A DNA stretch of 64,000 nt, from the NCBI GenBank assembly GCA_031835245.1, contig JAVKOQ010000018.1, forward strand, positions 335,090 to 399,089, in the 5' to 3' direction. Source of the stretch: Balamuthia mandrillaris. Lineage: Eukaryota > Discosea > Longamoebia > Balamuthiidae. The position numbers were made by a program, and so were the translations under genes. Positions 15,707 to 23,913 of this stretch are shown piece by piece (position 1 is the first letter of the stretch; every line of letters begins with the position of its first letter). A model generated the notes under the pieces. The model was not told where the DNA came from and made no database searches. It was given only the letters and a program-made list of their open reading frames with translations.

Positions 15707-18700
15707 ATGTACGGGCTTATACTTTCAGTGTTCCGGGACCTGCTCCTGAAGCAACACGGGGAGGACCAATGGATAGAGGTCTGCCGTCAGGCCAAGACCA
15801 TCTCCAGCTTCGAGGAGGAGGAGCCTTACCCTGACGCCTGGCTTTATCAGCTGGCTACCGCTGCCTCCGAGGCAAGTACATCCACAACCCGTTATAACAG
15901 CCGTTTTGTTGATAAACCCAAAAAAACAAAAACAATAAACAGCTTTTGGACATATCCGTGCCGGAGCTGCTTGAAGCATTGGGATACTATCTCATCGAAT
16001 ACATCTTGAAAACGGTAAACACAACAACACTTTACAACAAAGAAAACAAGATAGAGTAACGTTTGATTTTTATTTATTTTTCGAACAGGACTACAGCAAA
16101 CTGTTGAACCTTGCCGGCAAAACTTTGCCCGAGGTCTTGAACAACATCAACCGCATGCACGGTAGCCCCTCCGTTTCTCCTTTGTTTTTTTTCCCCCTCC
16201 TCAACATCCTCGGTCTTCTTTCTCTAACAAAAAAAAAAACAGGTCATCTTAAAGCATCACCACTTCATCAGGTACTATTTTTTGTTTTCAAAGGTTATCT
16301 AGTCCGTTTTGCTTCAGAATGACTTATTCTTTGGTTTTTTTCCCCATCCGTACATATAACGTCGTTATAGATGTCGCCTCCGACATTTCGGTGCACACAA
16401 GAGAAACCAAACAGGCTGCGCTTGCATTACATTCCTGGCGTGGCCTCCAGAGTAGCTCTGGCACCCCTCGTTATTGGTTTCTCTCTTTCTCTCTCTCTCT
16501 CTATGTCAGATGCACTAACTCTCTTCTTTCAACAAAACAGGAATCGTGAAAGGTCTTGCGGAACGCTATCTCAACCTCGACCACTTAACCGTCAAACAAA
16601 AACGGTTCAAGGAGAAAGGGGACGACCACGACGAGTTTGTCGTCCGCTGGAAAACTCCCTCTCTGTCCAAAGACGCTGCGCTCAACAGCGGTTCCGACAA
16701 GTCTGTCAGTTCGGAAAACAGTTTCCCGTTGGTGCATGGACTCTCTCCTTCTTCTCTGGACGAAGCCTTTCCATTTCACATTGTTTTCAACAAGAAACTG
16801 GAGATAGTACAAATGGGAAAGGTTCGTTTGCTTCTTACTCTTCTTCAGTGTTTTGTGTGAACATTCTCTAACTTAAATGCCAGTCGTTAGCTAAGCTGAT
16901 CCCAGCTGAGAAAGGAGACTCTCTATCGTCTTTCTTCACCTTGGACAGACCATCTACGGCCTCCTTCAGCTCTTGGAGTTCGCTTTGCAAGCACTGCAAG
17001 ACTCAGTACTTTCAGTTGCTTCACAAGTATGACCACTCCAAAGACTTTATCCTCAAAGGACAGGTAACCATTCTCTTTCGTCTCTTAGTTCTCCCTCCTT
17101 CGTTTCATCTTGTTATTTATACCTCTTCGCAACTTGATAGATGTTATGGAACGAAAAAGAAGATGTAATGTGCTTTGTTGGCTCGCCATTGTTGGAGCGT
17201 ATTGAGGATGCCTCCTACTTTGGGCTGAGTATGTCAGACTTTGCATTACACGATAACTCTACCTCCATTCTGCTCATGCACAGCACCTCTCCTAGCGGAA
17301 CAGAGGACAGGATTTCCTTCGAAGGTCTGTTGGCTTCTTGTGTTGATAAATGTTCTTGTTCTTGTTCTTCATCTGTTTCTTCTTCTTTGTCTTATTCTTA
17401 CGTATTGTAAATATCAGAACCTCTTTCGCCAAGATCAGAAGACTATGAACGGAAGCGAAACGTATTGAAAACATGGTTCGATTCCAAACTTTCTTCAAAC
17501 GAAACAACAGAGACAACCACAAAGAAAAAAAAGCGAAGTTCGCGACGATCTAAAAGACTATCGCATGTTCTTCATTGTTCGTTCCTCCTCTTCATTATCC
17601 TCCTCCTCTCGCTCTCTCGTTCTCTGTGTCTCTTTCTTGGTTTCATTGCTGATCATTGGCCCGTTATCTGTTTCATTACAGCTATACAATCTCATGTCTC
17701 TTCCAACGAGAAGAACGAAGTTGGAGGAGGCTCTACCATATGTTTCTCCTCCAAAGGGCGTTCACGTTCAGCTTCACCATCGTTTGACGTCTCAATGGAT
17801 GAACTATCTCTGTCATCCTCGACCTCTTCCCCCAACTCCCCCTCCTCCTCTTCTACTTCTTCTTCATCTTCTTCTGCTCCTTCATCCGCTCGTTCTCCTT
17901 CTCCATCATCATCAGCTTCTCATCGTATTTATAATGCATTCTACCAGCTGTTGATTGAGGATGGATGGAGCGGATATCCTCTCATGAAAGCTTTGCTCAC
18001 TCACATCATGAAGACACCCTCCACTCAAGTCGATCGCGTGTTTGATGCTGCGGTGAGCCTGCATAAACGTTCTGGAAACTTGATGTCGTTCTTGGAGGCA
18101 TTGCTTATGCAAGATATAGGGCGCTCCACTAAAGGTACATTTTTCTACTCTTTACTTCGTCTCTGCTCTCTTCTTATCTTCATGCGTGTTAACGATATAT
18201 AAACATAGAAACGTTGTTAAGGAGTGACGGACCCTCTATAAAGGTGCTTCACGCGTTCGTCGAACAGGAAGCACAGTCCTACATCACCAAACTTGCCGAA
18301 AGCATGAAAGAGTGCATCGAAGGAAACAAGAAAAGCAACCTGCACATCGATACAGAACGACTTACCGACAAGAACATGTCTGAACACAATGCAAGGATAC
18401 TTCTGGCAGTTGCTGAACGGTGGTTGAGGATTCTTTGCACCTCCGTTAACCATTGTCCGCCGTATGTTTTTCCCTCTGTCTTTCTTTCCACTTAATGCTG
18501 ATGTTTTCAACCTACAGTCCTTTGAGAAGACTGTTGAAACGTATAAGTGAAGAAGTGGCATTTAAATATCCGGACTTGAGCATTTCTGCTGTCGCCAACG
18601 TGCTGTTCTTCCGTTTCATAGGGCCTGTGCTCCTCACTCCTAAAATCGGCGAAGGTAAGTTTCTATCCTTTCATCCGCTCCTTCCAATTCTTCTCTTAAC

Positions 18701-19258
18701 TTTTCTTTTGCTTTCGAACATGCAGAACGAGATCTGAAAAGTCAGAGAGCGCTGACGGTTGTATTCAAAGTGGTGCAATCGTTGGTCAACATGGTGGAGT
18801 TCCCAGAATCGGAGGATAATGCCATGAAGCTGTTCAACACGTTCTTGTCCACGGAGAACCACATGTACCTTCGAAACTTTGTGATAGCACTCATCGTATG
18901 TTTCTCCAGTCTCTCGCTTCTCTCCTATTTCTGTTGTTGTTTCGTGCCCTTCTGACTTTCATGCTTCAGGACGAAAGCAAGATTGTTGCAGCCGAAACGC
19001 AATGTTATGACGACGTCATCGCAACGCCAAGAGGCGAGGCCACCGAAGAATGGATGAGATCCTCCATCTCCGTCATCAAGGATGCATTCCTTCAAAACAT
19101 GGAGTTTCTTTGGGCCACATTCACTTCTGATCCACAATTGGTACCTTGCCCCTCTCTCTCTCTCTCTCTCTCTCTCACTCTCTCTCTAACCTTTGGATAA
19201 AAAGGGAACTTTGTTGCAACGCTTTATTGCCACCAGTCTCAACTCCATACGATGCTGA
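15707..19258 (+). CDS. H-NOX/HNOBA/RasGAP fusion protein, paralog 1
   Basis: Fifteen exons give 815 residues: 15707-15871, 15943-16014, 16089-16161, 16243-16271, 16371-16476, 16541-16821, 16884-17063, 17141-17324, 17418-17537, 17682-18134, 18209-18461, 18518-18654, 18726-18895, 18970-19140, 19205-19258 (the 17537/17682 junction is least certain). Residues 1-185 are an H-NOX haem domain starting MYGLIL, with proximal His103 (NRMHGHLK) and FRCT. Residues ~245-375 are the HNOBA/PAS-like domain of guanylate cyclase (AFPFHIVFNKKLEIVQMGK, LKGQMLW, GLSMSDFALHD). A Lys- and Ser-rich linker replaces the coiled coil and cyclase. Residues ~480-800 are a RasGAP domain: finger motif ETLLRSDGPS (Arg559) and FFRFIGPVLLTP (~669-680). 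No cyclase catalytic domain is present. The expected role is gas- or redox-controlled inactivation of Ras. The first intron has a GC donor. Confidence 0.9.
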
Positions 19259-22800: not shown

Positions 22801-23913
22801 TCAGGTCTCTTGTGGAGAGAATGGCAGAGTGCTTGGAGAGCGTCAAGAAAAAGAACCTCGAGATCGATCCGAGTAGACTGTCGGACAAGAACATGTCGGA
22901 GACGAACGCCAAGATACTGTTGAACATTGCTGAGCGTTGGTTGAAGACTCTCTGCGAGTCATCCAACAACTGTCCTCCGTATGTTTCTCCTTTTTCCTTT
23001 CTTGTTCTTGTTCTTCTTCTTGTTCTTCTTCTTCTTCTTCTTCTTCTTCTTCTTCTTCTTCTTCTTTTTTCTTCTTCTTCTTCTTCTTCTCTTTCTTCTT
23101 CTTCTTCTAATTGAAACCCAAACAAAAGAGGATTGAGGAAGTTGTTGCGACGGATAAGCGAAGAAGTGGCGTTTGCTCATCCAGAAATGAGTGTCTCTGC
23201 AATCGCCAACATCCTATTCTTCCGGTTCATTGGTCCTGCTTTGCTCACTCCGAAACTTGGTGAAGGTAGTCATTCACTTCTTTTTTCATCAGCGCTCACT
23301 TCTTCTACTTCATCTTCTCTGTGTCCTAACAACAAAGGTTTTCTCTTTAACAGAAAGAGACATAACAACACAAAGAGCATTGACAGTGGTCTTCAAAGTG
23401 GTTCAAGCCTTAGTCAACAAGGTGCAATTCACAGACGCTCAGGACAGCTACATGAAGCCTTTCAACTCATTCGTCTCAACCGAAAACCAACAACTGCTGC
23501 AAACCTTTGTGATGGATCTTATCGTACGTTTCTCTCTTCTCTCTCCTTTTATTCTTTCGTCTAAGGTTTTGTGTTTTTTTTTTTTTAAAGGATGAAGCAA
23601 AGATTGTTGAAACGGAACATCAACAAACGGTCGAGAGAAGCAAAGAAGACGAAGACTTTGTGGTGCGAGCTTCCATGGCGATCATTCGAGACGCCCTTCT
23701 ACAAAACATGGAGTTCTTGTGGAAGGCCTCCATCTCTGACCCTCAGCTGGTACTTCTTGTTCTTCTTCTTCTTCTTCTTCTGCTTCTTTTCCTTGTTCTT
23801 CTTCTTGTTCTTCTTCTTCTTCTTCTTCTTGTCCACGTTATAACGAACCAACGCAACAGGGCACATTGCTTCAACGTTTCCTTTCGGTGGGCCTCTGCTC
23901 CATTCGTTTTTGA
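19862..23913 (+). CDS. H-NOX/HNOBA/RasGAP fusion protein, paralog 2
   Basis: Fifteen exons give 802 residues: 19862-20026, 20089-20160, 20239-20311, 20765-20793, 20882-20987, 21044-21309, 21404-21583, 21765-21948, 22017-22259, 22337-22654, 22726-22978, 23129-23265, 23354-23523, 23591-23749, 23860-23913. Eleven exons have the same length as in paralog 1 and intron phases match throughout, so this is a tandem duplication. H-NOX has the proximal His at residue 103 (NSMHGHLK). HNOBA shows VFPFHFSFNKKLEIVQMGK and GLSMSDFAMHD. RasGAP keeps ETLLRSDAPS (Arg550) and FFRFIGPALLTP. Linker regions differ in sequence and length, while domain cores are strongly conserved, which argues that both copies are functional. 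The third intron is the longest in the pair and is filled by (TTTC)n and (GTTCTC)n arrays. Confidence 0.9.
20340..20700 (+). repeat. Compound microsatellite (TTTC)n-(GTTCTC)n-(TTTCTC)n in H-NOX intron
   Basis: About 180 bp of nearly perfect TTTC is followed by hexamers GTTCTC and then TTTCTC, all inside the intron 20312-20764. All units are pyrimidine-rich on the coding strand. Confidence 0.95.
22995..23108 (+). repeat. TTC microsatellite in RasGAP-region intron
   Basis: (TTC)n with TTG interruptions lies in intron 22979-23128 of H-NOX/RasGAP paralog 2. The equivalent intron of paralog 1 (18462-18517) is 56 bp and lacks it, so the expansion is recent. Confidence 0.9.

Follow-up and report, generated by a model that had tools for sequence, protein, structure and literature searches.

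Can a eukaryotic cell pass a gas signal to Ras within a single protein? The question is raised by two tandem genes in the window analysed here, a 64-kb stretch of DNA that forms the final 64 kb of contig C17 (399,089 bases) in the 64.8-Mb assembly of Balamuthia mandrillaris, an amoeba of the Centramoebida. Judged from its sequence, each gene encodes a single protein that begins with an H-NOX (haem-NO/oxygen-binding) domain and an HNOBA domain and continues, after a long linker predicted to be disordered, with a Ras GTPase-activating (RasGAP) domain of the neurofibromin/p120 type. The standard eukaryotic route for nitric oxide (NO) runs from the sensor through a cyclase to cyclic GMP (cGMP); in animals, NO on this sensor drives cGMP synthesis, and a kinase and GTPase regulators follow in several steps. 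RasGAPs switch Ras off, and in amoebae Ras governs motility and macropinocytosis. Both halves of the fusion were known already; what is new is their joining and the likely mode of their coupling. A direct gas-to-Ras link in these proteins is plausible, and the explanation that best covers the whole, namely that an NO-sensing H-NOX/HNOBA pair would alter the GAP activity reaching Ras without cGMP, has in our estimate a probability of roughly 0.5.

Do sensor and RasGAP indeed share one polypeptide? Spliced by hand from the window DNA, genes 1 and 2 each comprise 15 exons with zero internal stops, and together with the public proteins this bears out the coordinates that an earlier, sequence-only reading of this DNA had given (15707-19258 and 19862-23913). 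That reading had also named the three domains, and in both proteins the Pfam matches for HNOB, HNOBA and RasGAP all lie above the curated cut-off. HNOB (PF07700) matches at 3.4e-32 in gene 1 and 3.8e-30 in gene 2, HNOBA (PF07701) at 1e-26 and 94.2 bits in both, against a cut-off of 23.4, and RasGAP (PF00616) at 5.4e-14 in gene 1 and 6.4e-19 in gene 2; for H-NOX and RasGAP, score and fold agree. No cyclase domain (PF00211) is found by Pfam in either model at E 0.001, or at E 0.1 in the public proteins P0001 (gene 2) and P0002 (gene 1), and at E 0.1 the fusion proteins have no further Pfam domain beyond sensor and RasGAP. The earlier claim of a RasGAP where the cyclase of soluble guanylate cyclase (sGC) should be holds, with the addition that the helix ending the HNOBA profile in sGC is also unmatched. 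A complete sensor module and a two-arginine RasGAP on one polypeptide are supported for both genes, which are laid out as follows.

15707 to 19258, plus strand: gene 1, H-NOX/HNOBA/RasGAP fusion of 828 residues (public P0002, 840), ATG at 15707 and TGA at 19258; from hand splicing, Pfam and the public protein
15707 to 16569, plus strand: gene 1 H-NOX domain, residues 1-158, exons 1-6; from PF07700
16741 to 17284, plus strand: gene 1 HNOBA/PAS-like domain, residues ~216-350; PF07701 in two stretches, the first being 216-288, with the end taken from the gene 2 alignment
17285 to 17920, plus strand: gene 1 low-complexity linker with a polybasic run and, inside it, introns 17325-17417 and 17577-17681
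17921 to 19258, plus strand: gene 1 RasGAP domain and C-terminal tail; PF00616, with the start taken from the gene 2 alignment
19862 to 23913, plus strand: gene 2, H-NOX/HNOBA/RasGAP fusion of 802 residues, ATG at 19862 and TGA at 23913; from hand splicing, same as P0001
19862 to 21072, plus strand: gene 2 H-NOX domain, residues 1-158, exons 1-6
21232 to 21929, plus strand: gene 2 HNOBA/PAS-like domain, residues 212-352; PF07701, profile positions 4-174 of 216
21930 to 22434, plus strand: gene 2 linker, predicted to be disordered, in the place of the sGC signalling helix
22435 to 23913, plus strand: gene 2 RasGAP domain and C-terminal tail

Conceivably, errors of modelling or assembly might have produced such a fusion from an H-NOX/HNOBA gene and a RasGAP gene that are mere neighbours; the Balamuthia join is, after all, seen in genomic DNA alone and lies within low-complexity sequence. 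We regard this as very improbable, because the tandem paralogs have equal intron phases at 14/14 positions through the join, because the public annotation has the identical join, and because a third protein, P0005, carries the three domains in one open frame of a transcript. P0005 is a 905-residue EukProt entry that bears the name of a Trinity-assembled transcript (label to 'ORF type:comp'), starts with MYG, and has H-NOX, HNOBA and RasGAP in that order (1.3e-29, 2.3e-27 and 1.9e-11). The same fusion therefore recurs in another eukaryote, which is what the sequence-only reading had proposed looking for. P0005 is 25% identical to the Balamuthia fusions overall and 35% in the sensor; it shares with them the domain order, a three-residue insertion in the haem clamp, the proximal His and the arginine finger, and differs in a longer linker and in FFRVLTP for FFRFIGP. 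A full-length query, for which the best 8000 candidates by word sharing were scored, missed P0005, probably through crowding by words from the low-complexity linker, and the protein was recovered once words were taken from residues 1-350. A linker-free profile of the three fusions, applied to the best 7998 candidates, returned those three again, plus one ordinary RasGAP. As such searches pick up proteins that have 5-residue words in common with the query, the spread of the fusion is a lower bound.

The public models agree closely with the hand models. P0001 is identical at 802/802 residues, and the sole difference in P0002 is an insert of 12 residues where exons 1 and 2 meet. This insert falls inside the H-NOX domain and is absent from gene 2, P0005 and the sGC row; since no aligned relative has it, the public model is probably wrong at this join, where a GC-AG intron of gene 1 (15872-15942) seemingly removes the 12 residues; all other introns of both genes are GT-AG. 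Intron 3 of gene 2 (20312-20764) is 453 bases long, owing to long runs of TTTC and related pyrimidine repeats, whereas gene 1 introns measure 56-105 and the other gene 2 introns 56-181 bases.

Is the sensor equipped to bind haem? The residues and segments that bear on this question are the following.

16158 to 16160, plus strand: gene 1 codon of proximal haem His103; from alignment, in which the sGC beta row P0003 has the same residue, and from motif position
20308 to 20310, plus strand: gene 2 codon of proximal haem His103; from alignment
16428 to 16451, plus strand: gene 1 altered haem clamp, Tyr133-Arg140, YIPGVASR for YxSxR; from alignment against bacterial rows
20939 to 20962, plus strand: gene 2 altered haem clamp, Tyr133-Arg140, YMPGNASR; from alignment

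His103 of gene 1, gene 2 and P0005 aligns with the proximal His of the animal sGC beta row, as had been anticipated for both Balamuthia domains, and Pro117, Tyr133 and Arg140 are invariant across the same four sequences. The sensor module is homologous to the N-terminal half of sGC beta. The fusions resemble sGC beta-1 (GUCY1B1) further in that H-NOX and then HNOBA/PAS run from residue 1 with an MYG start, at 26-28% identity over ~300-350 residues; they depart from it in having RasGAP for cyclase, an unmatched signalling helix and the clamp insertion. Unlike the sGC alpha/beta pair, both tandem paralogs retain the proximal His. The fusion genes have Leu146 at what we take to be the site of the O2-stabilising Tyr in O2-binding H-NOX proteins, where the sGC beta row has Ile; a non-polar distal residue is typical of NO sensors. 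Gene 1 and gene 2 proteins are 60% identical over 769 aligned residues (linker 44% of 98, sensor 62-67%, GAP 62%), and the proposal that two paralogs point to different ligands finds no support: both have His103, Pro117, Tyr133, Arg140 and the distal Leu, with no difference at any of these haem-pocket positions.

The clamp is where the fusions part from the canonical pattern. In sGC beta the haem-propionate clamp YxSxR is formed by Y135, S137 and R139 (excerpts of PubMed Central (PMC) articles PMC3212528 and PMC8196705). In 3/3 fusions three additional residues stand between Tyr and Arg, giving Y-[MIT]-P-x-x-x-[ST]-R, so that the YxSxR spacing is lost and the Ser/Thr adjoins the Arg. By comparison, YxSxR is kept in 2/2 sGC rows and in 36/37 bacterial H-NOX rows, or 33/34 distinct rows without three repeats (stand-alone proteins such as Nostoc Alr2278), the rows having been chosen by likeness to the fusions and hence being no random sample. 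The bacterial set was drawn from two phyla, with a match in 15/194 and 65/200 genomes and at most 20 loci each; 42 loci (L027-L068) gave 37 rows, with no row from L046-L049 and L065. A wider scan of the genome collection with an H-NOX alignment confirmed 4 loci among 62 pattern matches. The lone row of 37 without YxSxR, L030 from Cypionkella sp., also lacks the inserted form at the clamp, and its proximal His is seemingly absent from the usual place. As far as alignment can tell, the altered clamp weakens the case for canonical haem binding by these H-NOX domains but leaves the case for an H-NOX fold as it was, and the clamp common to the fusion clade looks derived.

The three fusion H-NOX domains group together at 100/99 in a tree of 36 rows (3 fusions, 2 sGC and 31 bacterial; of the 37 bacterial rows, the repeats L031, L032 and L033 and the short L045, L056 and L067 were omitted). 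This tree gives no placement of the fusions relative to sGC or to the cyanobacterial-phylum group, a label that rests on a single named member, Limnothrix; the forks next to the fusions are open, and one neighbour sits on a very long branch.

Might the H-NOX domain then have lost stable haem, or bind another ligand, leaving H-NOX/HNOBA as a scaffold for dimerisation or interaction, as the haem-free H-NOX of sGC alpha may be, with the GAP regulated otherwise? The YxSxR interruption in 3/3 fusions, set against 36/37 bacterial rows, speaks for such a loss, and so does the missing motif that was formerly held to explain the haem-free alpha subunit of moth sGC (excerpt of PMC8196705). According to the same excerpt, however, structures blame an N-terminal extension for the haem-free state of sGC alpha, and the fusions have no extension, starting with MYG as beta does. 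The proximal His, the Pro and the clamp Tyr and Arg, kept in 3/3 fusions, would be hard to explain without haem, whereas L030, lacking the motif, also seems to lack the proximal His, as expected of true loss. On balance we consider a scaffold role unlikely, though to be taken seriously.

The sequence-only reading had listed ETLLRSD and FFRFIGP(V/A)LLTP in both genes, and both motifs are there. In gene 2, ETLLR and FFR align with TLFR and FLR of neurofibromin; the residues are identical in gene 1. We take these segments to hold the arginine finger and the second (FxR) arginine, both of which the alignment places in the fusions, and the finger Arg is also present in P0005.

18220 to 18222, plus strand: gene 1 codon of arginine finger Arg572; from alignment to gene 2, and of gene 2 to neurofibromin
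22737 to 22739, plus strand: gene 2 codon of arginine finger Arg550; opposite TLFR of neurofibromin (1nf1) in the alignment

With neurofibromin and p120 RasGAP the fusions share the GAP fold, both arginines and the Lys in the VFKVVQ segment; they differ in carrying an N-terminal gas-sensor module. The fusions are predicted to have GAP activity.

How might the sensor act on the GAP domain? In sGC, the signal is carried by a coiled coil. It is located between PAS and cyclase (excerpt of PMC8196705). In the fusions, the HNOBA profile match ends at position 174 (gene 2) and 178 (P0005) of 216, whereas two sGC controls reach 216, and the signalling helix or coiled coil at the HNOBA end is unmatched by profile in gene 2 and P0005. 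Between sensor and GAP, 3/3 fusions have a low-complexity linker of 128-180 residues, and in the structure model of gene 2 the predicted local distance difference test (pLDDT) is below 50 across residues 332-514. Because the helix is unmatched and a seemingly disordered linker takes its place, coupling of the sGC kind appears unlikely; 'direct' control is not simply transferable from sGC, because the haem clamp is altered and the interdomain helix missing. The candidate couplings are a tethered cap, a change of dimer state and a change of location, of which we favour cap or dimer.

Alternatively, gas might affect localisation only, the sensor masking or unmasking a basic linker segment, so that a GAP that is always active would be recruited to the membrane or released from it. 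A disordered tether fits such a scheme better than rigid coupling, and polybasic linker runs beyond shuffled chance occur in gene 1 (net +9 in 20 residues, reached by 5/1000 composition shuffles) and P0005 (net +9, reached by 23/1000). The gene 2 linker, however, has no basic excess (968/1000 shuffles reach its value), for which reason a polybasic membrane anchor was dropped as a common feature; we think it rather improbable that localisation is all that gas controls.

For the reading that we prefer, in which gas binding alters the active GAP that reaches Ras, we envision the following scenario. The H-NOX domain would bind haem and, given its non-polar distal position, sense NO. This NO would arrive from outside the cell, because no NO synthase was found in the Balamuthia genome by a profile search that was positive in 2/14 control genomes. 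Its binding would change the H-NOX/HNOBA pair. On its flexible tether, this pair might serve, under ligand control, as a cap or a dimer module, and the switch would alter the amount of active GAP reaching Ras. NO would in this manner set Ras-GTP directly, without cGMP. We lean slightly towards NO freeing the GAP and turning Ras off, the sign being a guess.

Several points weigh against this scenario. Haem binding by the fusions is uncertain because of the three extra residues between clamp Tyr and Arg, and the ligand is judged from a single distal residue. With a disordered linker and an absent helix, no path from sensor to GAP is visible. The gene 2 structure model is middling (mean pLDDT 60.5, predicted template modelling score 0.35), and pLDDT is below 50 also at residues 104-114, directly after the proximal His. 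The Balamuthia fusions are known from gene models on genomic DNA alone, and the finding that non-synonymous divergence lies well below synonymous divergence in every part of the paralog pair is only rough because the latter is near saturation.

Does the genome leave room for a route without cGMP? Genome-wide, HNOB has 3 matches and HNOBA 3, every one inside genes 1 and 2, in a profile search that reads exon by exon and that weak exons can escape. The cyclase domain has 13 matches, none on this contig, and no H-NOX match adjoins one. The sequence-only reading had foreseen no cGMP step; this stands insofar as sensor and cyclase matches lie apart, yet, given the 13 cyclase matches elsewhere, Balamuthia may still have cGMP signalling as such. 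Potential targets abound, with at least 170 Ras matches (150 of 666 candidates scored). RasGAP has 109 exon-level matches; beyond the pair, the two top-scoring places are both on contig C127 (33 and 34% identity). Many of these matches form equal-scoring pairs across contigs, which suggests an expanded RasGAP set and either haplotypes assembled separately or duplicates.

If the preferred reading is true, the eukaryotic NO sensor has a second, shorter output, ending in a RasGAP, and the eukaryotic H-NOX/HNOBA module is movable between effectors, as in bacteria. Bacterial H-NOX partners include kinases, cyclic-di-GMP enzymes and chemoreceptors, but are not known to include GAPs. Tentatively, and at slightly less than even odds, the fusions may represent an ancient class of gas receptor with a RasGAP output, in which NO or a related ligand on the H-NOX haem sets Ras-GTP within one molecule by a mechanism other than that of sGC, with a flexible tether and a modified clamp. 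As a soil amoeba able to infect the brain, Balamuthia would presumably meet NO from bacteria and host cells, and the fusion could therefore report outside NO to Ras. The fusions are also a natural test of H-NOX signalling without the coiled-coil helix.

Acanthamoeba castellanii is an amoeba of the same clade as Balamuthia. Its H-NOX was described as not occurring together with guanylyl cyclases and as having no distal Tyr, with the same ligand inference (excerpt of PMC4053784); our protein searches, based on shared words, did not return the A. castellanii H-NOX proteins. In the PMC collection searched, a scope that excludes subscription papers and supplements, no paper combines H-NOX and RasGAP, RasGAP is absent from all 16 papers that name two of the terms HNOB, HNOBA and RasGAP, and the terms nitric oxide, RasGAP, heme and sensor domain never meet in one paper; H-NOX and 'GTPase-activating' co-occur in three papers, in the excerpts returned in unrelated senses. 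The sought terms are absent from the main text of the Balamuthia genome annotation (PMC10471605) and transcriptome (PMC8569187), and nothing relevant appears among the matches listed for H-NOX in amoebae, the Balamuthia genome, Acanthamoeba with H-NOX, sGC evolution, or nitric oxide with Balamuthia.

Neither Rfam, at gathering cut-offs, nor a tRNA scan gave a match in the 64-kb window. Upstream of gene 1 and transcribed away from it lies an Hsp70-like gene (13892-15187, minus strand; PF00012 at 1.2e-18 in one frame), for which an additional N-terminal frame is seen by eye. Elsewhere in the window are an open frame of 751 residues with leucine-rich repeats (4070-6325, minus strand; PF13855, 2.3e-57), a WD40/eIF2A-like open frame (39818-41041; PF08662, 9.6e-21), and, at 51030-52415, a 3'-5' exonuclease (PF01612, 1.4e-16) with, downstream of it in the same frame, a weak match (7.9e-5, below cut-off) to a STAND-type NTPase, an unusual pairing.

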